Below, in pieces: positions 7,793-44,370 of a stretch of DNA of 63,058 nucleotides (positions are counted from its first letter, which is position 1; every line of letters begins with the position of its first letter). The notes beneath the pieces are model-generated. The model was not told where the DNA came from and did no database searches. It saw nothing but the letters and a program-made list of their open reading frames with translations. The position numbers and the translations under genes are program-made. This DNA comes from Gemmatimonadota bacterium. Lineage in GTDB: Bacteria > Gemmatimonadota > Gemmatimonadetes > Gemmatimonadales > Gemmatimonadaceae. The stretch covers positions 1 to 63,058 of the forward strand of contig JAHFCT010000019.1 of NCBI GenBank assembly GCA_023249375.1, in the 5' to 3' direction.

Positions 7793-10024
7793 ATGCTTCG
7801 CCAAACCAGTCCGTTGAGAGTAGTGCGATCTCGTGACTGCGCGGATGAGGGGCCCTGTCGCGTTGAAACCGGCGCGCCACTGAACGGTGGAACAGAAGTC
7901 GTCCTCGATGCGTCGACCCCATCTGCGGCGCAACTCGCCCAAGCCCAGGAGGAGCTGACTCGCCTCACCCGGGCGGTGCAGCGCTCTGCAAGTCTGTTTC
8001 GCTCGATCGTGGACAACGTGACCGACCTGCTGGCTGTGCTCGACGCGGATGGCGGCATCCGGTACCTCAGCCGGTCGGCCACTACCGTGCTCGGCTACGA
8101 GCCACGGGAGCGACTGGGGCGCACGCACTTTGAACTGGTGCACCCAGACGATCTGGAGCGCGTCAGGCGTGTGTGGGGAAGCCTCACCTCAGGGAAGAGC
8201 ACCAAGCGGTTGACGTGCCGCTGTCGCCACAAGGATGGGTCGTGGCGATACCTCGAGTCCACGGGTGCCAACCTGCTTGCCGACTCGATCGTGCGAGGAA
8301 TCGTGATCACCGCACGGGATGTCACCGAGCGCACCGAGGCGGAAGTGCGGCTGCGAGCGCAGGACCGTGAGATGCGCGCGATCGTGGAGGCGGTCAACGA
8401 CATCGTCTTTGAATTCGACGGTGAAGGTCGCTACCTGGGCGTGTGGGCCGCCGACGAGACGAAGCTGATCCACCCCAAGAACGAGTTGCTGGGTCGTCGG
8501 GTGGCCGATGTGTTGGGACACGATGCGGCCATGCCCTTCCTTGTGTGCATTCGCCGGGTGCTCCGCACCGGTGTCGCGGAGACCCTCGAGTACGCGCTGA
8601 CCCTGGAGAACGGCGAGCATCGGTTCGATGCGAGATTCAGGCGGCTCCCGAACTTCGGCGGACAGCCTGATACGGTGCGCATGATCATCGCGGACGTAAC
8701 CGAACGCAAATGCGCCGAGGAGCAACTGCGACGGTCAGAAGCCGGATACCGTAGCCTGATCGAGCACGCGCCAGTGGGGATCTATCGCACCACGCCCGAT
8801 GACCGTTTCATGGCGGTCAATCCGGCGCTCGTAGCCATGCTCGGCTACCGGAACCCGGAGGAGCTGATTGGGCGTCCGATCACGACGGTCTTCTGCGCCG
8901 ATCTGAAGGAGCGCGACGAGTTGCTGTCACGCTTGCGGACGTCCGGCGGGAGCGTGGTTGAGACGGAGTGGAAGAAGAAAGACGGTAAGTTGGTCACCGT
9001 GCGCATCACCGTGCGCGTTGTGCATGATTCGGGCGCGGGGACCGACTGTTTCGAAGGTCTGGTCGAGGATGTGACCGACCATCGTTTGCTCGAGCGACAG
9101 CTCCGCGTTGCTCATCGGCTGGAGTCCGTTGGCCTGCTGGCCGGCGGCGTGGCCCACGACTTCAACAACCTGCTGGGCGTCATCGGGGCGGGTGCCGACA
9201 TTGCCGAGGCGCAGATCGAGCAGCACATGGACGCGATCCGCGATGAGCTGCACGTCATCACGTCCGCAGTGCAGCGCGGTGGCGCTCTGACCAAGCAGTT
9301 GCTGGCCTTCGCCCGCCGTCAGCCCATCACGCCGCGTGCCTTCTTGCCATCCGAGGCGATTGGGCAGTTGCTCGATCTGCTCAAGCGGCTGCTCGGAGTC
9401 GGCGTGTCGATCGAGACCGACTTCGCCTCGACAGCCCGCGTGGAGATGGACCCGACGCAGTTCGAGCAGGTGATCGTGAACCTGTCGGTGAACGCACGCG
9501 ACGCGATGCCGGACGGCGGAAGACTCACGTTCGGGACTGCGAACATCGACCTCGACGAGGTCGGCTGCCGCGACTGTGCCGGAGCGAGACCCGGACAGTA
9601 CCTGATGCTGTCGGTGAGCGACACCGGCGCCGGCATGAGTGAAGAGACCAAGGCGCGGCTCTTTGAACCCTTCTTCACGACGAAACAGTCAGACCGGGGG
9701 ACGGGGCTCGGGCTCGCAACCGTGCATGGGATTGTCGCGCAGAACGGCGGACACATCTGCGTCCACAGCGAGCCGGGCCGGGGCGCGACCTTTCGGATCT
9801 ATCTTCCCCGCGTGGACGAGCCGGTGGGCGCCACGCCCCTCGCAGAGCAGGGGAACCAGGTGTTGAAGGCGCCGGACGGACAGACTGCCTGCACCGACGA
9901 CGCGGTCGTTCGCCACGACATCCTAGAGGAGGGCACGGCATTCCTCCAGCAGCCGTGCGCTCCCGAAATCCTCGTCCGAAAGGTGCGCGAGATTCTCGAC
10001 CGGTCCGCGTCAAAGGCCACATAG
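7793..10024 (+). CDS. PAS sensor histidine kinase with an eroded receiver domain
   Basis: 743 aa with the same plan as the kinase at 4102. Three PAS domains (~65-180, ~190-305, ~315-430) lead to a dimerisation helix with acceptor H455 in GVAHDFNNLL and a complete ATPase domain (N-A-R-D-A-M-P-D-G-G, DTGAGM, F-F-T-T-K, G-T-G-L-G-L-A). After the kinase only the C-terminal third of a receiver remains (~680-735): D-D-A-V-V-R-H-D-I-L-E-E aligns with D-D-A-I-I-R-H-G-V-F-E-K of the neighbour. The part holding the acidic pair and the phospho-Asp is gone, and the conserved K of LQKPF has become Q (LQQPC). The kinase should work, but not through its own receiver. The leader hairpin covers the ribosome site. 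Confidence 0.88.
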   Translation: MLRQTSPLRVVRSRDCADEGPCRVETGAPLNGGTEVVLDASTPSAAQLAQAQEELTRLTRAVQRSASLFRSIVDNVTDLLAVLDADGGIRYLSRSATTVLGYEPRERLGRTHFELVHPDDLERVRRVWGSLTSGKSTKRLTCRCRHKDGSWRYLESTGANLLADSIVRGIVITARDVTERTEAEVRLRAQDREMRAIVEAVNDIVFEFDGEGRYLGVWAADETKLIHPKNELLGRRVADVLGHDAAMPFLVCIRRVLRTGVAETLEYALTLENGEHRFDARFRRLPNFGGQPDTVRMIIADVTERKCAEEQLRRSEAGYRSLIEHAPVGIYRTTPDDRFMAVNPALVAMLGYRNPEELIGRPITTVFCADLKERDELLSRLRTSGGSVVETEWKKKDGKLVTVRITVRVVHDSGAGTDCFEGLVEDVTDHRLLERQLRVAHRLESVGLLAGGVAHDFNNLLGVIGAGADIAEAQIEQHMDAIRDELHVITSAVQRGGALTKQLLAFARRQPITPRAFLPSEAIGQLLDLLKRLLGVGVSIETDFASTARVEMDPTQFEQVIVNLSVNARDAMPDGGRLTFGTANIDLDEVGCRDCAGARPGQYLMLSVSDTGAGMSEETKARLFEPFFTTKQSDRGTGLGLATVHGIVAQNGGHICVHSEPGRGATFRIYLPRVDEPVGATPLAEQGNQVLKAPDGQTACTDDAVVRHDILEEGTAFLQQPCAPEILVRKVREILDRSASKAT

Positions 10025-12846: not shown

Positions 12847-13447
12847 CGGGGAGCTTAGCGCTCAAGAGCTGCGGAATTCGCTCGCCGCGAGCCGAGTGCA
12901 CGATGAGATGTTCAAGCCGCCGCTCGCGCGTCGCCTCCTGCTTCGCACTCATTACATAGGATGTCACTAAGCGTCGGTATCCCGGCGGCTGCGCCTCGAA
13001 GAACTTCCACGCGCCTTTCACGGCCTTGAAGCGTTTCAGGAAGGCCGCCGAGAACTCCGGCGGCGCCGTCTCAAACGAATAGATGCCCGTGCGCGCCGGA
13101 TCTCGGCGTGCGAACGCCGCGAGGCCCGCCGGCGTCATGCGCCCAGCAGCGATGAGCGCGTTGACCTTCCGTACGTTGACGTTGCTCCAGATCGACTTCG
13201 CCTTGCGCGGCGTGTAGCGCTGCATGTAGCGCTCGGCGTCGATGCTCTTCACGACGCCGTCAATCCATCCGAAGCACAGCGCTTCATCAAGCGCCTGCTT
13301 GTAGATCACGCCGCCTTTGCCGGAGGCCTTCTTGTAGTAGCCGATCCAAAGTTCGGTCTTCGACGCGCCGTGTTTGGCGAACCAGCCGCGGAGGGCGGCG
13401 GGAGTCCTGAAGAACTGTGGCTTGGGCAGTGCAGGGGGAAGGGGCAC
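12839..13447 (-). CDS. YdeI/OmpD-associated family protein
   Basis: 202 aa. Matches the YdeI/OmpD-associated (bacteriocin-protection-like) family: an N-terminal F-R-T-P-A-A-L-R-x-W-F-x-x-H segment, W-I-G-Y-Y-K-K-x-S-G-K, E-A-L-C-F-G-W-I-D-G, and Y-T-P-R-K-x-x-S-x-W-S-x-x-N in the first 100 residues, then a C-terminal F-F-E-x-Q-P-P-x-Y-R-R block. The start is a GTG (13445-13447) lying inside a short GC-rich repeat, so the first residues VPLPPALP are encoded by the repeat and no Shine-Dalgarno sequence is evident. Function of the family is unclear; resistance to peptides has been suggested for homologues. Confidence 0.82.
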   Translation of the reverse strand: MPLPPALPKPQFFRTPAALRGWFAKHGASKTELWIGYYKKASGKGGVIYKQALDEALCFGWIDGVVKSIDAERYMQRYTPRKAKSIWSNVNVRKVNALIAAGRMTPAGLAAFARRDPARTGIYSFETAPPEFSAAFLKRFKAVKGAWKFFEAQPPGYRRLVTSYVMSAKQEATRERRLEHLIVHSARGERIPQLLSAKLPAR

Positions 13448-13516
13448 GGTGTGGTGCAGGAGAGGGGGCAGGGTGTGGTGCAGGGGAAGAGGCAGGGTGT
13501 GGTGCAGAGACAGGGG
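13429..13516. repeat. GC-rich dispersed repeat, family 1, tandem copy (site A)
   Basis: Three tandem units of about 24-28 bp share the core GGCAC/AGGGTGTGGTGCAGG with purine spacers. The repeat contains the GTG start of the YdeI-like gene. Inverted relative to the copy at 13586-13620; further copies are at 37999-38036 and 48666-48708. Confidence 0.8.
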
Positions 13517-13629: not shown

Positions 13630-14448
13630 ATGCCCCCTCGCGTAGCATTTGCGGTCATCCACGGCATTGGCGCTCAAAAGCCCGTCTTCGCCGACGCGTT
13701 CATCAACGCGGTGCGTGCGCGCGTCGTCAAACACGGCATGCCGGCTGCAGCGCTCGAAGCCGCGCCAGTCTACTGGGGCGACTTGTTTCAGGTCGACGAG
13801 GACGATCTCTGGCGCCGAATGTCGCAATCGCACCGCCTCGACTGGCAATGGCTGCGCAAGTTCGTGATGAGCGTGCTGGCCGACGCGGTGGCGTATCGCC
13901 GCCCGAACCCGGGGCAGTACGATCACTATCAGGCCGTGCATCAGCGCGTGTACGAGCGGCTGGCCGAACTCTCGGTGCGCGCCGGCATCACCACGCCGCT
14001 CGTCGTGGCCGCGCACTCACTGGGGACCGTCATTCTCTCCGATCACGTGTGGGATGAGCAGAAGCGTCGAGGACCGGGGCGCGACGCGTTCACGCGCTGC
14101 GAGACGCTGGCCGGCATCATCACCTTTGGCTCGAACATCCCGCTCTTCACGCTCGGACTGCCCGACGTGAAGCCCATCGCCTTTCCGCCTCCCGGCCACG
14201 GGCTGAGCGCACCGGTGCGCGCCGCGGCGCGGTGGAACAACTACTTTGACCGCGATGATGTGCTGGGCTATCCGCTTCGCGAAATCAGCCCGGCGTACGC
14301 CGCGGCGGTGAGCGAGGATCTTGCACTCGAGGTGGGCGGGCTGTTCGGCAGTTGGAGTCCGGCGGCGCACGGCGCGTACTGGGAAGACTCCGGCTTCATT
14401 GACCGGGTGGCCGCGCAAATCGCGGCTGTCTATGAGGCGCAACGATGA
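13630..14448 (+). CDS. Alpha/beta-hydrolase fold protein
   Basis: 272 aa, no signal peptide. The N-terminal strand F-A-V-I-H-G-I-G (H-G oxyanion region) and the nucleophile elbow A-H-S-L-G-T (~134-139, Ser as nucleophile) mark an alpha/beta hydrolase of the lipase/esterase type. A later D-R-D-D and a C-terminal H region could supply the acid and base, but they cannot be fixed from sequence alone. The leader upstream is a copy of repeat family 1 with no Shine-Dalgarno. Its stop overlaps the next start (ATGA at 14445), so it is coupled to the small secreted protein. Substrate unknown. Confidence 0.8.
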   Translation: MPPRVAFAVIHGIGAQKPVFADAFINAVRARVVKHGMPAAALEAAPVYWGDLFQVDEDDLWRRMSQSHRLDWQWLRKFVMSVLADAVAYRRPNPGQYDHYQAVHQRVYERLAELSVRAGITTPLVVAAHSLGTVILSDHVWDEQKRRGPGRDAFTRCETLAGIITFGSNIPLFTLGLPDVKPIAFPPPGHGLSAPVRAAARWNNYFDRDDVLGYPLREISPAYAAAVSEDLALEVGGLFGSWSPAAHGAYWEDSGFIDRVAAQIAAVYEAQR

Positions 14449-14891
14449 CGAGACGCGCATGGATGTGGGTTGTTGGTGTGGCGAGTCTGCTGAGTGCGCC
14501 ATCGACGCGGGCGCAGGTGGTCTCAGCGCGCGCGCCATCAGCGCCGGTGCCAGTGGCGCAGGCCCCCGCTGTCCTCGGCGAATGGCGCGGCCGCTCGACC
14601 TGCCTCGTGCGTCCGTCGCCATGCAATGACGAAGTCGTGGTCTACGACATTCGGCGCGACAGCGTCTATGGCGATTCACTCGCATGGCAGGCCGACAAGA
14701 TCGTGAATGGCGTGCGCGACCCGATGGGCGTGCTGCGCTGCGCGTGGCACTCGCCGGTGCTGGCGTGCAAGCTGCGCGTGGCCGACTGGTGGCGCCTCAC
14801 GCTGCATGGCGACACGCTTTCCGGATTCCTCGACCTGGGCGACGGCCGCCGCTTTCGCGAGGTTGTCGTCACGAGGGCGCCGAAGCCGTGA
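14445..14891 (+). CDS. Small secreted protein of unknown function
   Basis: 148 aa. A Sec signal peptide is clear: T-R-R, a hydrophobic stretch V-V-G-V-A-S-L-L-S, and an A-x-A-like site before Q-V-V (~24). The mature part has W-R-G-R-S-T-C, a C-N-D pair and C-A-W-H-S-P-V-L-A-C, giving four cysteines that could form two disulphides in the periplasm. Strand-rich C-terminal half. The start overlaps the hydrolase stop, and the stop overlaps the GTG of DUF72. No family recognised. Confidence 0.72.
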   Translation: MTRRAWMWVVGVASLLSAPSTRAQVVSARAPSAPVPVAQAPAVLGEWRGRSTCLVRPSPCNDEVVVYDIRRDSVYGDSLAWQADKIVNGVRDPMGVLRCAWHSPVLACKLRVADWWRLTLHGDTLSGFLDLGDGRRFREVVVTRAPKP

Positions 14892-15697
14892 ACGCGGCGA
14901 TTCGCCTCGGCTGCCAAGGGTGGAACTACACCGCGTGGGTCGGGCCGTTCTATCCGGACAAGACGCGCGCCTCGGCGTTTCTCACAGTGTACGCCCGCGC
15001 ATTCAAGACGGTCGAGGTGGACAGCTCGTTCTACGCGACGCCGGCCGTGCAGACGGTGCGCGGCTGGGCGTCCCGCGTGAGCGACGACTTCAAGTTCTCG
15101 CTCAAGCTGCCGCAGGAGATCACGCACGAGAACCGCTTGCGGCACAGCGAGGCGCAGACGGCGCAGTTCTTTGACGTGGCGCGAGAGCTTGGGCCCAAGC
15201 TCGGCCCGGTGCTGATTCAGCTCGGTCCCGACTTTGCGCCGGCGGAACTGCCGGCGCTGGCCGCGTTCCTGCCGCTGCTGCCGCGCGATGTGCAGGTGGC
15301 GGTGGAGTTTCGCCAGCGCGGGTGGATCAACGAGGGCATCATCGCGCTGCTTGCCGAACATCACGTGGCGCTGGCGCTGGTAGATGCGCGGTTCATTCCG
15401 CGCTCGGTGATGCTCAAGCTCGCCGAGCATCCAACGGCGGATTTTGCGTACCTGCGGTGGATGGGGCCCGACCGCGACATCGTGGATTACTCGCGCGTGC
15501 AGCACGATCGGTCCAAAGAACTCGACCTGTGGCGCAAAGCCATTCCCGTGATCGCCAGCAAGGTGAAGACAGTGTACGGCTACGTGAACAACCATTTCAG
15601 CGGTCACGCGCCGGCCGATGTGCGCACACTACAGCGGCAACTTGGGCAAGCGTCGGTGGATCCGTCGCAGTTGGGTGAGCAACTGCGACTGTTCTAG
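14888..15697 (+). CDS. DUF72 TIM-barrel protein
   Basis: 269 aa. The N-terminus I-R-L-G-C-Q-G-W-N-Y-x-x-W-V-G-P-F-Y-P, the V-E-V-D-S-S-F-Y segment and F-K-F-S-L-K-L-P are hallmarks of DUF72 (YecE-like) proteins, a TIM-barrel family with no firmly known reaction. A C-terminal Y-x-Y-V-N-N-H-F-x-G-H-A-P motif also fits. The GTG start at 14888 overlaps the preceding stop (GTGA), so it is the third gene of a coupled set. A bidirectional terminator follows at 15719-15754. Confidence 0.9.
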   Translation: MNAAIRLGCQGWNYTAWVGPFYPDKTRASAFLTVYARAFKTVEVDSSFYATPAVQTVRGWASRVSDDFKFSLKLPQEITHENRLRHSEAQTAQFFDVARELGPKLGPVLIQLGPDFAPAELPALAAFLPLLPRDVQVAVEFRQRGWINEGIIALLAEHHVALALVDARFIPRSVMLKLAEHPTADFAYLRWMGPDRDIVDYSRVQHDRSKELDLWRKAIPVIASKVKTVYGYVNNHFSGHAPADVRTLQRQLGQASVDPSQLGEQLRLF

Positions 15698-15718
15698 ATG
15701 CGTGTTGGGGAACAACGT

Positions 15719-15754
15719 ACGCGGGGCGGGCTCAGCGCAGAGCCCGCCCCGCGT
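15719..15754. terminator. Bidirectional hairpin terminator between convergent genes
   Basis: A perfect 15-bp stem, ACGCGGGGCGGGCTC (15719-15733) with GAGCCCGCCCCGCGT (15740-15754), closes a 6-nt loop between the ends of DUF72 (15697) and the giant lipoprotein (15780). There is no long U-run on either side. Confidence 0.7.
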
Positions 15755-15779
15755 GGCGCATCATGACCTGTCGCTGCGC

Positions 15780-18700
15780 CTACGGCAGCCAACTGATCGT
15801 GCCGGAGCTGGAGGTTCCCTTGTAGTTGATGCAGCCGCCGCCGCACGCCGTCATCGCATTCGCCGAGGTCGGCGTCGTGCTCAAGAGCGAGACGTTTTGT
15901 GTCCCGGAGTTCAGCAAGTACAGCCCGGTGCTCGAAAGCGTCCCCGTAAAGGTGAGCCCGGAGAACGTGTACGTGCCCGCCGACGAGCGCGCGAACTCGA
16001 ACATCGGGGCGCCGAACCCCAAGCCAAAGTCCTGGAACGTCACGTTGTCAAAGGTCGCGTTGGACGTGCCGTCGCTGAACCTGAGCATCGCGTTCGAGAA
16101 GATCATCGGGGTGGCGGCGCCCGTCTGGCTCAGTCCCGAGACCTCGAGTCTTCTGTAGCTCTCCGACGACACCGTGGCGGCGCCGGCGCCCGTGCCGTGC
16201 GACAGTGTGCCGTGGATGGCGGCGTCGCGCGAAAGCGCGAGTGTCGAGCCGCTTTCGATCTGCACGTCGTTGAAGAAGTAATAGACGAACGAATCGAAGT
16301 TCACGGTGCTCGCGCCGCCCGAGAACACCGTCTTGTGCGTGCCGGTTGGCGCGAACGCGCCGGAGGCGCTGCCGCACTCGCCGCACGTTTCAATCACGCC
16401 GCCGATGATCTCGAACCGCCCAGCCGTCATCATGCTGGCCCCGCCATAGAAGTACGCACCGCCGCTGCCAATGAACACCTGATCGGCGGCGTTCGTCATC
16501 GTCAGCGTGCCGCCGTTTTGCGTTTCGAGCGACGCCGCGTCCAGCCGCCCGCCGTTGATCATGAGATCGCCAGACACGCTCGACGAGTCCATGTAGGTAT
16601 AGTCGATCGTGAGCGCGTCATTCACCTTGAGCTGGCTGCCGGGGCCCGCAATCCGGTATTTCCCGTACACGTACACAATGTTGAAATTGCCGACGATCGA
16701 ATTGAACGCGCTGCCGTCACCCTTCAGGTTGAGGCCCTCGCCCTCGCACGTGTTCACGGCCTCGGCGCCGAGCGCCGAGACCACATTGCCGTAGACGTTG
16801 ATGCCTTGGTTGCAGCTGAGGTCGATGGTGGCGCCCGCTGCGATCGTCAGGTTGTGGACTTCGGCCGGGCCGCCCACGTTCCGCGGATAATTCGTCAGGC
16901 CAGCCGGAATCGTGACGTCGTCACTCGATCCTGGCGCATAGCCTGTCGACCAGTTGCTGCCGTCGTTCCAATTGGTCGAGTAGACACCGGTCCAGGCAAA
17001 CGACGCGGCCCAGTTGGTTCCTGCACCCGAGAGTAGGACATGCCCGCCGTGCATGGTTGGGTACGGGTCCCACATGTCGAGGTACAGCGCGTCCTCGGGC
17101 GCGGGCGCGCGTGTCTCCGTCGCGGCGATGTAGTAGCCCGTGGTCGGCGTGGTGTAGAAGGACCACTCGTCGAGTTCCACGTGCCCAGAGGAGCAGTCGC
17201 AGTTGGTCGAGTTGTCACCCGCGCGCTGGATGGTGAACTGCGTCGCCGCCGGGTCCATGTTGTCGAAGACGACGTAGTACATGTCCCAGACCGGCTTGCC
17301 GTCGAGGAGCACCCACCGAATGTTGTCGAACTCCAGCTGGTAGACGTCGGCGCCGTGCGACGTCACCGTATGTTGCGAAGCCGTCGTCGAGTTGACGAGA
17401 TAACAGTCGCCGCCGGTCATCAGCTGGCCGGTGACCCATAGGTCGCTGTTGAGATGGAACTCGCTTCCGGAGAGGTAAAGCGCGCCAAAGTACGACGACG
17501 CTCCGCACGGGTCCGACGCGCACGGATTGGCGAACTGGATGACCGATGCCGATGAGCCGCTGGCCCTCCGGCGCTTGAACAGCCGCACGCCTTCGGTCGA
17601 CAACTGCGCGGCTGTTCGATTGCTGAGTGCCAGCGGATGCCGGCGCAGCATCGCGGCTCGCCTGACTGCGTGCCGCTCCAGCAGCCGTGTCCGACGCACC
17701 TGCGCCGACAACGCCGTGACGGCACGCATCTGACGAGCGGGCGCCTTCAGCGCCCGCACGCCGCGGTTCGCCCGAGGCGCCAGCACGCGCGCCACGCGCT
17801 CTCCGCCCTCCGACTCGGACATGCCGACGTCCACCTCAAACGAGTCGGCTGGAGCGAACGCATTGGCTGCACCGCCGCCCTGGGTGAAATCGCCGAGGAC
17901 TTCCATCCATCCGGCCGTCAGCAGACCCGCGGTGCTTCCGCCGGCAAAGACCGCGGAGCCCATCACGCCGAGGTACGGATCACTGTCGTCGGTGTTCATC
18001 TTCAGCACGCCGCCGGAGCGCGTGGCGAAGTCGCCCATCACCGTCACGCCCGCATTGGCGAGCTCGAAAATGCCGGACGCGCCAGTCACCGTGAGGTTGC
18101 CGTTCAGCTGGAAGTCCTGCGTCGGCGTGAAGTGGCCCGTGACCGCCATGTTCGTGCTGACGACCGGTGTTGGGGCGTTCACCCAGACGATCGACGTGCC
18201 CGCAAACTCCGTGCTGTCGACGCGCCATCCGCCGAGCGCCACCGTGGTCGAGTCTGTGATCGTGCCGCCCACTCCGGCAACGCCACCCGCCGGACTCACT
18301 ACGAACACACTCGGAGCGATGGTAACATCGCCCATGAAGTTGATCTCGCCCGTAAGCTCCTTCGGTCCCCAACCGGAGAAGACCGCGTGGTGAATGCCCT
18401 TGCCCGACACTCGTGGCGCGGTCACGACAATGTGCTGTGCGCTCTCGTCATTCCGTGCGAAGACCACGGTGTGCGTCCCCGTGGATTGGAGGGCAGTCGC
18501 GCTCTGCAGCGCGACATCCTGTCGTACGACCAGCTTGCCCGACGACGGAGCGCTCGTCCCGGCGGTGGCGGTGAACTGGACGATTCCCAAGACGTCGACG
18601 GAGTCAGCGGCTCGCGAGCCGGCAAGCCGGCCGCCACTCGAGATGACGAGACTGTCGTGGACCGTCACGGAGTGGCCGTTCGGATCAAGCACGCCGTTCG

Positions 18701-42332: not shown

Positions 42333-43268
42333 TCAGTCGCCGTCGGCCCCGTCGCGATAGGGCACGTCAATCTCCATTCCGTCGCGCGCGATCGTGACGC
42401 GCCCAAAGACCTCGCGCGCCTCGCGGTCGAGATCGGACGGATCGCGCGAGTAGCGCGCGGAGAAGTGCGTCAGCGCGAGATGCGTGACGCCGGCGGCGGC
42501 CGCCACCTGCGCGGCTTCACGCGCGGTGCTGTGTCCCGTCTCGAGCGCGCGCTCCATCTCCTCGTCGCCGAAGGTGCTCTCGTGCACGAGGAGGTCGGCA
42601 CCTTGTGACATGGCGATGGTCGTCGCGCACGGACGCGTGTCGCCCGTGATCACGACGCGGCGGCCGGTGCGCGTGGGACCAACCAGCGTTGCCGGCTCAA
42701 TCACGCGGCCGTCGTCGAGGGTGATCGCCTCCCCCTTGTGGATGCGGCCCCACAGCGGCCCTTCGGGAATGCCAAGCTCGCGCGCGAGGTCGGGATTGAA
42801 CCGCCCGCGCCGTTCGTCTTCGACAAGCGCGTAACCCACCGCCACCGCGCCGCGATGTTCCACCGGGTAGGGCACGATGGAGTAGTCCTTGCGCTTCACC
42901 GGCTCGCCGGGCACGAGCTCGGTGATCTCCACGGCATACGTGAGCCGTTCGCCGCCAAAGGCGTCGGCGCGCTTCATCAGTTGCGTGACGCCGCGCGGGC
43001 CCCAGATGCGCAGCGGCTCCGTGCGCCCCTGCAGCGAGAGCGTGCGCATCAGTCCGAGCGCGCCGATGATGTGATCGCTGTGAAAGTGCGTGAAGAACAG
43101 GTCGCCGAAGGTGAAACCCACGCCGTAGCGCATCATCTGTCGCTGCGTGCCCTCGCCGCAGTCGATGAGCATCGTCTCGCCCTCGCGCACGAGGGCGAGC
43201 GCGGAGACGCCGCGCTCAACCGTCGGGCGCGACGCAGAGGTGCCGAGGAAAGTGAGGGAGAGGGACAA
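42333..43268 (-). CDS. rnz: Ribonuclease Z (tRNA 3' processing)
   Basis: 311 aa metallo-beta-lactamase-fold nuclease that trims tRNA 3' trailers, needed here because the tRNA genes seen lack encoded CCA. The metal motif H-F-H-S-D-H is at 61-66, preceded by L-I-D-C-G-E-G-T-Q-R-Q. Other ligands lie in Y-P-V-E-H-R-G, T-G-D-T-R-P-C, L-V-H-E-S-T-F and L-T-H-F-S-A-R-Y, all standard for RNase Z. The start is a TTG (43266-43268) preceded not by a Shine-Dalgarno sequence but by a run of CCATCTA-type heptamers. Confidence 0.93.
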   Translation of the reverse strand: MSLSLTFLGTSASRPTVERGVSALALVREGETMLIDCGEGTQRQMMRYGVGFTFGDLFFTHFHSDHIIGALGLMRTLSLQGRTEPLRIWGPRGVTQLMKRADAFGGERLTYAVEITELVPGEPVKRKDYSIVPYPVEHRGAVAVGYALVEDERRGRFNPDLARELGIPEGPLWGRIHKGEAITLDDGRVIEPATLVGPTRTGRRVVITGDTRPCATTIAMSQGADLLVHESTFGDEEMERALETGHSTAREAAQVAAAAGVTHLALTHFSARYSRDPSDLDREAREVFGRVTIARDGMEIDVPYRDGADGD

Positions 43269-43278
43269 GAGGGGAATA

Positions 43279-43314
43279 GATGGTGGATGGGAGATGGTAG
43301 ATGGCAGACGATGG
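43279..43314. repeat. Heptamer array (GATGGNN), family 2, site E
   Basis: Four tandem heptamers GATGGTG, GATGGGA, GATGGTA, GATGGCA, then GACGATGG. It starts 10 bp upstream of the TTG start of rnz. The sense strand reads as pyrimidine-rich CCATCTACCATC. A related array is at 44326-44370. Confidence 0.8.
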
Positions 43315-43349
43315 AAAATAATCTCGCATTATGGCGACGCGTGTGGCGA

Positions 43350-44318
43350 TCAGGTCGCCGCGGCGAGAATGCCCTGCAGGCGCTGCTCGTCGATGTTGCC
43401 GCCGCTGATGATCGCGGCAATCGGCGGCACGAGGTGGCGCAGGCGCCCCGTGCGCAGCGCGGCGACGCACACGGCACCCGAGCCTTCGGCGCGAATGCCC
43501 TCGGCCAGCCACAGCCAGGCGATGGCGCTAGCGATTTCCTCCTCGGTCACGGTCATGATCGATTCCAGCGTCGCCTGGCCGATGGCCAGCGCGTCGTCGT
43601 CGACTTGCCCGGCAAGACCGTCGGCGAGGGTTGGCAGGTTCTCGATCTCGATGACGCGGCCGGCCTCGAGTGCGCGCGACATCGCGTCGGTGCGCTCACT
43701 CTGTACGCCGATGAGTCGCACGTGCGGCGCCTCGCTCAGCAGGAAGGCGCCGACTCCTCCGAGCAATCCGCCCCCTCCCACGCACACGAGCATCGACTGC
43801 AGGTCGGGCAGCTCCTCGAGCACCTCGACGGCGACCGTCCCTTGCCCGGCGAGCAGCGGCACGCCGAGGCACGGATGCACGAAGGTGGCACCCGTTTCCC
43901 CGGCGAACGCGCGTGCTCGCACCATCGCATCGTCGTAGTCGACGGCGTCATCGATCACCCGAGCGCCGCGGCGGGCGATCCCTTCCTTCTTCACGGCCGG
44001 CGCGTTGCGCGGCACGAAGATCGTGGCTGAGACGCCCAGCCGCTGCGCCGCCTCGGCCACGCCGAGCCCGTGATTACCGGCGCTCGACGCGACGATGCCA
44101 CGGGCGCGCTCGCCGGCGGAGAGCAGCGAGACCGCGTTGAACCCGCCGCGCAGGTTGAACGAGCCGGTGAGCTGCTCGGACTCGATCTTCAGGTAGACAT
44201 CACCACCCGCGAGCGCGGAGAGCGCTGTCGACTTGCGCAGCGGCGTACGCACGGCGACGCCCTGAATGCGGCCGGCGGCCTCGCGGATTTCGGTGGCGGA
44301 GGGGAGGAGACGGGGCAA
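43350..44318 (-). CDS. PLP-dependent threonine/serine dehydratase family enzyme
   Basis: About 322 aa. Fold-type II PLP enzyme: the Schiff-base Lys is in the conserved neighbourhood S-F-N-L-R-G-G (R where K is usual, see findings) after Y-L-K-I-E-S-E-Q-L-T-G. The S-S-A-G-N-H-G asparagine loop, the phosphate cup V-G-G-G-G-L-L-G-G and the C-terminal E-G-S-G-A follow. Start assigned to TTG 44318, giving the usual length; a longer frame to a GTG at 44414 would translate the heptamer array. Convergent with nothing and next to photolyase. Confidence 0.82.
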   Translation of the reverse strand: MPRLLPSATEIREAAGRIQGVAVRTPLRKSTALSALAGGDVYLKIESEQLTGSFNLRGGFNAVSLLSAGERARGIVASSAGNHGLGVAEAAQRLGVSATIFVPRNAPAVKKEGIARRGARVIDDAVDYDDAMVRARAFAGETGATFVHPCLGVPLLAGQGTVAVEVLEELPDLQSMLVCVGGGGLLGGVGAFLLSEAPHVRLIGVQSERTDAMSRALEAGRVIEIENLPTLADGLAGQVDDDALAIGQATLESIMTVTEEEIASAIAWLWLAEGIRAEGSGAVCVAALRTGRLRHLVPPIAAIISGGNIDEQRLQGILAAAT

Positions 44319-44325
44319 GGTGATG

Positions 44326-44370
44326 CAGACGGTAGATGGTAGACGATAGATGGTAGATGCTGGAAGATGG
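44326..44370. repeat. Heptamer array (GTAGATG), family 2, site F
   Basis: Tandem seven-base units GTAGATG, GTAGACG, ATAGATG, GTAGATG followed by CTGGAAGATGG. It lies directly 5' of the proposed TTG start (44318) of the dehydratase, in the same position and orientation as site E at rnz, about 1.05 kb away. Confidence 0.8.

Follow-up and report, generated by a model that had tools for sequence, protein, structure and literature searches.

Tandem heptamers of the STRR type in cyanobacteria are dispersed through non-coding DNA, and their length changes in steps of seven. Direct repeats of the heptamer TAACTGA are found in marine Beggiatoaceae, some Cyanobacteria and Bacteroidetes, in sets of 2-6 or more copies, with more than 100 mostly intergenic sets per genome (MacGregor 2015, PMC4679880). 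These sets lie just before start codons and overlap the expected ribosome site; Shine-Dalgarno (SD) sequences are rare there, and the orientation of the repeat to the start is fixed (PMC4679880). In the BOGUAY genome, 147 of 170 sets face starts and 12 are directed toward stops, and TAACTGA was proposed to act as a functional translation leader (PMC4679880). Among the long simple sequence repeats of prokaryotes, those with a seven-base unit form the most frequent class (Mrazek 2007, as described in PMC4679880). The REP/BIME palindromes of Enterobacteria are dispersed intergenic stem-loops, a fraction of which lie at most 15 nt after stop codons (PMC12306157).

Heptamer arrays upstream of rnz and a dehydratase-like gene

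The window (the whole stretch of 63,058 nucleotides that was analysed) is contig C48 of a Gemmatimonadaceae (Gemmatimonadota) genome, G000, a 3.81-Mb draft in 120 contigs that is 96% complete. Two arrays of seven-base units had been predicted at 43279-43314 and 44326-44370, and both are real. Our unit model bounds them, on the plus strand, at 43277-43311 (TAGATGG, TGGATGG, GAGATGG, TAGATGG, CAGACGA) and at 44326-44367 (CAGACGG, TAGATGG, TAGACGA, TAGATGG, TAGATGC, TGGAAGA), and Tandem Repeats Finder reports period 7 at 43277-43308 (4.6 copies) and 44327-44359 (4.7 copies). The exact sequence GATGGNNGATGG occurs three times in the window, every copy in the first array, where 0.18 copies are expected and none of 100 shuffles reaches three. 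The top-scoring tandem repeat of the window lies elsewhere, at 13429-13516, and is an array of the 24-base unit GTGCAGGAGAAGGGGCAGGGTGTG.

The arrays are 8 and 7 bp from the TTG starts of two minus-strand genes. The first is rnz, encoding ribonuclease Z (42333-43268, start at 43268), whose product scores above the cut-off of NCBIfam model TIGR02651 and is 80-87% identical to RNase Z of uncultured Gemmatimonadota MAGs. The second is a threonine/serine dehydratase-like (PLP) gene (43350-44318, start at 44318), whose product matches the threonine ammonia-lyase and serine-threonine dehydratase models of NCBIfam, in all cases below cut-off. Both TTG starts agree with orthologues: those of rnz begin with ATG, GTG or TTG at the same codon, and the dehydratase orthologues likewise support their start. 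Within the genus, rnz orthologues with arrays use TTG, GTG or ATG.

On the gene strand, the rnz-side array reads TCGTCTGCCATCTACCATCTCCCATCCACCATCTA and the dehydratase-side array TCTTCCAGCATCTACCATCTATCGTCTACCATCTACCGTCTG. Each is of CCATCTA type in the sense of its gene, which confirms the shared orientation originally predicted, and the purine strand of the rnz-side array is directed away from rnz. The first unit of the other array, CAGACGG, is a typical head unit. The sense strand is pyrimidine-rich, as had also been proposed (74% pyrimidine and 6% G in the rnz array, 71% and 10% in the dehydratase array), and both leaders are nearly devoid of predicted structure (-1.4 and 0.0 kcal/mol). 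Neither array has a second arm nearby.

Beyond each array lies a candidate -10 element on the minus strand. A TATTTT box at 43315-43320, 46 nt before rnz, matches the consensus TAnnnT, and a weaker CATCTT box at 44364-44369, 45 nt before the dehydratase start, overlaps the array call and is conserved as CATCTTCC in L101, L103, L105 and L110. Among 52 rnz orthologues with a clear start codon, most of them without arrays, a TAnnnT hexamer ends 4-9 nt before the start in 42 (0-3 in shifted controls) and an SD-like motif is present in 2. This spacing and the absence of an SD form the pattern expected of leaderless transcripts, and array-less rnz genes appear leaderless-like on that basis. The TATTTT box of the window likely corresponds to this hexamer and likely serves as a -10 element; the CATCTT box is a possible one. 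Array-less orthologues have the -10 box at the spacing that marks leaderless genes, about 6 nt from the start codon, and in the window the box stands 46 nt away.

The box of rnz is retained within the genus (TATTTT in the window, TTAGTTT or TTACCTT in congeners), and in most members the array lies between box and start; dehydratase orthologues share this layout, the array following the CATCTTCC box. Both arrays follow a likely promoter box and precede the start codon, and are therefore probably part of a transcribed leader. A weak terminator-like stem-loop is present on the minus strand at 43325-43341, its T tail overlapping the TATTTT box; one such site was found, against 0.4 in shuffles.

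Neither gene has an SD sequence, in agreement with the original prediction. Judged from the orthologues, the missing SD at rnz is ancestral and independent of the array. Since rnz has no SD across the family, array or not, the array does not replace one; inserted between the box and the start of an SD-free gene, it would instead lengthen an existing SD-independent leader. Nor do we see the pattern expected of an SD-replacing leader, with arrays where the SD is absent and an SD where the array is absent. An SD-like motif precedes about 29% of called genes genome-wide, so SD-free starts are common here anyway. At starts flush with an array, SD motifs number 0/12, against 29% elsewhere (p=0.02; small numbers and our own gene calls), and part of this deficit follows from the composition of the unit itself. 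TTG is over-represented at such starts, as predicted (3/12 versus 19/956 elsewhere, p=0.002), although this comparison rests on few genes and our own start calls.

Placement and polarity across the genome

The census covered stretches of G000 totalling 1.49 Mb, many of which were picked for containing matches, so that the density of arrays is inflated; this choice should leave position and polarity unaffected. Genes were called with our own simple codon-usage finder, the genomes are drafts, and sites shared between species do not count as independent, given the kinship of these species. In this DNA the array model detects 75 arrays, against none in a shuffle. Fourteen lie within called genes and 61 are intergenic, while 88% of the DNA is coding. 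The 5' edge of the purine strand is no more than 8 bp from a gene edge in 32 of the 61 intergenic arrays (21 stops and 11 starts), but the opposite edge does so in only 2; random placement within the same intergenic regions gives about 8.7 per edge. The same test yields 21 versus 1 in G008, whose unit is GAGATGG (null 3.3 and 3.2; 17 stops, 4 starts), and 22 versus 1 in G010, whose unit is GGTGGAC (null 4.3 and 4.4; 15 stops, 7 starts).

Genes for tRNAs are also bordered by arrays. On contig C77, arrays begin about 2 bp after a tRNA-Asp and about 9 bp after a tRNA-Leu, and one ends about 5 bp before tRNA-Asp; on contig C20, an array begins about 8 bp after a tRNA-Leu. In each case the purine strand points outward. 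The arrays are therefore a genus-wide family that lies flush on gene edges, at stops more than at starts and at tRNA genes too, with the purine strand directed outward.

These observations bear on the original prediction in two ways. Arrays do occur genome-wide and beyond starts, which goes part of the way towards refuting it, but their placement is far from a random scatter. Some arrays do lie flush with starts, but stops are about twice as frequent and tRNA edges are occupied as well. Leaders specific to starts are accordingly rejected on the stop placement in G000, G008 and G010 and on the tRNA edges.

Several other accounts of the placement were considered. C-terminal truncation as the source of the stop-flush position is rejected for tuf and lepB, whose C-termini are of equal length in congeners with other units. 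Avoidance of upstream ATGs might give polarity at starts, but leaves convergent stop-stop regions and tRNA genes uncovered. The idea that the arrays are multiple -10 boxes (TACCAT) is countered by CCCATCT and CCCGTCT, two units that lack TA but occupy the same site. A speculative insulation by Rho rut sites, in which RNA would be C-rich only where transcription runs into a gene, suits the mirror symmetry, but paired arms would mask the C-rich strand.

Two further loci of G000 show unusual arrangements. Two near-perfect heptad hairpins with the identical loop TGACGGCGC occur on contig C106 (L095) at 14076-14148 and 15302-15381, both within a called 3.6-kb ORF (13872-17510); coding sequence, too, can thus contain arrays or be split by them. 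On contig C26 (L201), an array-bearing segment of about 50 bases is present twice, 221 bp apart (7992-8012 and 8213-8233), beside a run of N; this is probably an assembly gap at a repeat.

Paired arms and changing units

Arrays have a recognizable anatomy. The gene-proximal, or head, unit is most often CAGAYGG or GTGAYGG in three genomes, the inner units are TAGATGG, GAGATGG or TGGACGG, and array ends tend to come after NNGA. A minority of arrays are paired: when neighbouring arrays among the 75 of G000 lie at most 200 bp apart, 12 of 15 such pairs are inverted, with the purine arm first. In the tuf-rpsJ spacer, a stem-loop is present in 9 of 10 congeners, where it occupies much of the spacer and begins directly 3' of the EF-Tu stop codon. 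Its arms pair more stably with each other than with arms from other species (-51 versus -39 kcal/mol, p=2e-5), and in 7 of the 25 consensus pairs both partners have changed. Homogenization within a genome would yield the same pairing signal, so these figures establish that the arms are matched, not that structure is under selection. The signal for exact copying between the arms of one hairpin in G000 is weak (p=0.07), with one clear case at C106 14076-14148. Rfam covariance models applied at the gathering threshold to L221, L233, L240 and L243 gave no match.

It is possible, though less likely than not, that each array is one half of a stem-loop at a gene boundary that is under selection for punctuating transcripts, by terminating them, protecting their 3' ends or insulating genes in the manner of REP/BIME elements, and that single arms are remnants or partial elements. 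The inverted purine-first pairs and the widespread tuf-rpsJ stem-loop with its matched arms are what this would produce, and flush placement at stops is shared with a fraction of REPs (PMC12306157). However, a nearby second arm is missing from most arrays, the two of the window among them, the leader arms do not fold, and homogenization accounts for matched arms equally well.

The repeated unit differs among genomes and can be regarded as a dialect. The typical unit is TAGATGG or CAGATGG in the genome of the window, GAGATGG in G008 and GGTGGAC in G010. In counts that include overlapping matches inside one array, G010 has 104 matches to GGACGGTGGACGGTGGACGG and the other ten genomes have 0-7 each, G003 has 217 matches to the triplet pattern GGTAGNN, and TAGATGG-type patterns range from 0 to 121 per genome within the genus. 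Array sites common to congeners include rnz, the dehydratase gene and tuf-rpsJ, and species differ in both the unit and the number of units. The rnz site carries CCATCTA in the window, CCATCTG/CCATCCG in G001, CCCATCT in G008, CCCGTCT in G005 and CCGTCCA in G010; across the orthologous rnz and dehydratase sites together, the units are CCATCTA, CCCATCT, CCCGTCT, CCGTCTG and CCGTCCA. Sites that are shared while their units change point either to concerted change at dispersed loci or to the recurrent formation of new arrays at the same positions. They also imply that there is no conserved unit-specific recognition by the ribosome. The predicted role as a translation leader is compatible with the position of the arrays, which have a likely promoter box on one side and the start on the other, but not readily with the variation of the unit among species at the same rnz and dehydratase positions.

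Multiples of three aside, period 7 is conspicuous among the tandem periods. It is also prominent in distant Gemmatimonadaceae, where purine-rich arms lie on stops (AGTGAGA in L175, CGGTGGA in L105, GGTGGTC in L111) and pyrimidine-rich arms lie near starts. In three congeners (L247, L251 and L249), purine-rich tandem arrays with a unit of about 12-13 bases, of the AGAGAGACAACAG type, run from the lepB stop codon onward. The same position carries heptamers in the species of the window and two others; here the position is kept and the period has changed.

Explanations and comparison with known systems

The reading we favour, with a confidence only slightly above even, is that these are fast-turnover gene-edge heptad arrays and that the two single arms of the window are passive, unstructured leaders of SD-independent genes. 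DNA-level turnover, through slippage and through copying between arrays and between arms, would make the arrays and homogenize them, and selection on genes would restrict where they persist. The pyrimidine-rich arm at rnz or the dehydratase gene would be transcribed without blocking SD-independent initiation and would be neutral for translation. Paired arms would probably punctuate transcripts as REP-like stem-loops. The TTG enrichment at array-flush starts is not explained in this way and counts against a purely passive leader, and the outward polarity, which extends to convergent gene ends and tRNA genes, is outside what such turnover accounts for.

A more ambitious proposal, which we regard as tentative and rather improbable, is a class of self-homogenizing gene-boundary elements. 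In it, heptad arrays with a head unit would be anchored purine-outward on all kinds of genes, would form stem-loops in pairs and shift jointly across a genome to another unit at kept sites, and would be upheld by a copying or recognition system while acting as transcript boundaries.

In the original prediction the arrays are translation leaders that stand in for the SD and could tune expression by their length. We consider functional leaders of this kind, whether as a site for S1 or another RNA-binding protein or as an enhancer, with copy number tuning expression, unlikely. The short distance to both starts, the SD and TTG counts at array-flush starts, the pyrimidine-rich unstructured leaders and the precedent of TAACTGA (PMC4679880) all speak for them, but stops outnumber starts in all three genomes, tRNA edges carry arrays too, rnz has no SD even when no array is present, and the unit changes between species at the same site. 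The notion of the array as an SD substitute is the part that these data do not support.

Unlikely, too, are plain replication-slippage microsatellites, that is, neutral heptamer expansions tolerated wherever no gene is broken. The prominence of period 7 and the depletion of arrays from coding DNA would follow naturally, and in most repeat-rich genomes seven-base units make up the most frequent class (Mrazek 2007, as cited in PMC4679880), but slippage fails to give strict outward polarity, the recurrence of a single unit at about 100 places in a genome, a shared head unit or matched inverted arms. Spread by REP/RAYT or reverse-transcriptase mobile elements, although it could yield palindromes that are scattered through intergenic DNA and share a defined head unit, is very improbable because the enzymes are absent: a search of the window's genome (96% complete) for the Y1 HUH transposase (PF01797) gave no match, as did G008, with matches in 2 of 11 genomes, and reverse transcriptase (PF00078) is absent from 10 of the 11, all counts being from incomplete drafts. 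One of the two transposase matches in the genus, at 489-845 of contig C122 in G010 (L323), is a Y1 relative broken by one TAG stop.

Intergenic heptamer arrays have so far been seen as slippage products or translation leaders. To account for the strict, replicated geometry, the genome-specific unit at shared sites and the matched inverted arms, a copying or selective process beyond these two ideas is needed. SD-independent initiation also becomes testable in this genus, through a natural collection of genes whose leaderless-type promoter has acquired a long non-SD leader.

The TAACTGA repeats are the closest precedent and take away much of the novelty of a heptamer leader without an SD. As in that system (PMC4679880), the units here are seven bases long, many sets are intergenic and often near starts, the orientation to the start is fixed, and the SD is mostly absent. 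However, the TAACTGA unit is shared across distant species, whereas the unit here is specific to the genome, and TAACTGA faces starts, whereas stops predominate here and tRNA edges are used. In addition, the purine strand here runs outward whichever end of a gene it borders, and arms are commonly paired in inverted order. In the open-access literature, including PMC4679880, we found no description of outward purine polarity, use of tRNA edges, a genome-specific unit or inverted arms in such arrays. Like STRR heptamers and the repeats of Mrazek 2007, these arrays are tandem, dispersed, non-coding and variable in steps of seven bases; gene-edge polarity, a head unit and a genome-wide dialect at shared sites are found here and, as far as those repeats are described in the accounts available to us, are not reported for them. 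As dispersed intergenic stem-loops, the inverted pairs and the tuf-rpsJ element bear a partial resemblance to REP/BIME sequences, since a minority of arrays are paired, but they are built of heptads, occur in a genome with no Y1 transposase and belong to a family that also uses starts and tRNA edges. Finally, rnz orthologues resemble leaderless or otherwise SD-independent genes, in having TAnnnT about 6 nt upstream of the start codon and in lacking an SD. Unlike in leaderless genes, an array-bearing stretch of 40-60 nt parts the box from the start in this genus, where the rnz mRNA is probably no longer leaderless.
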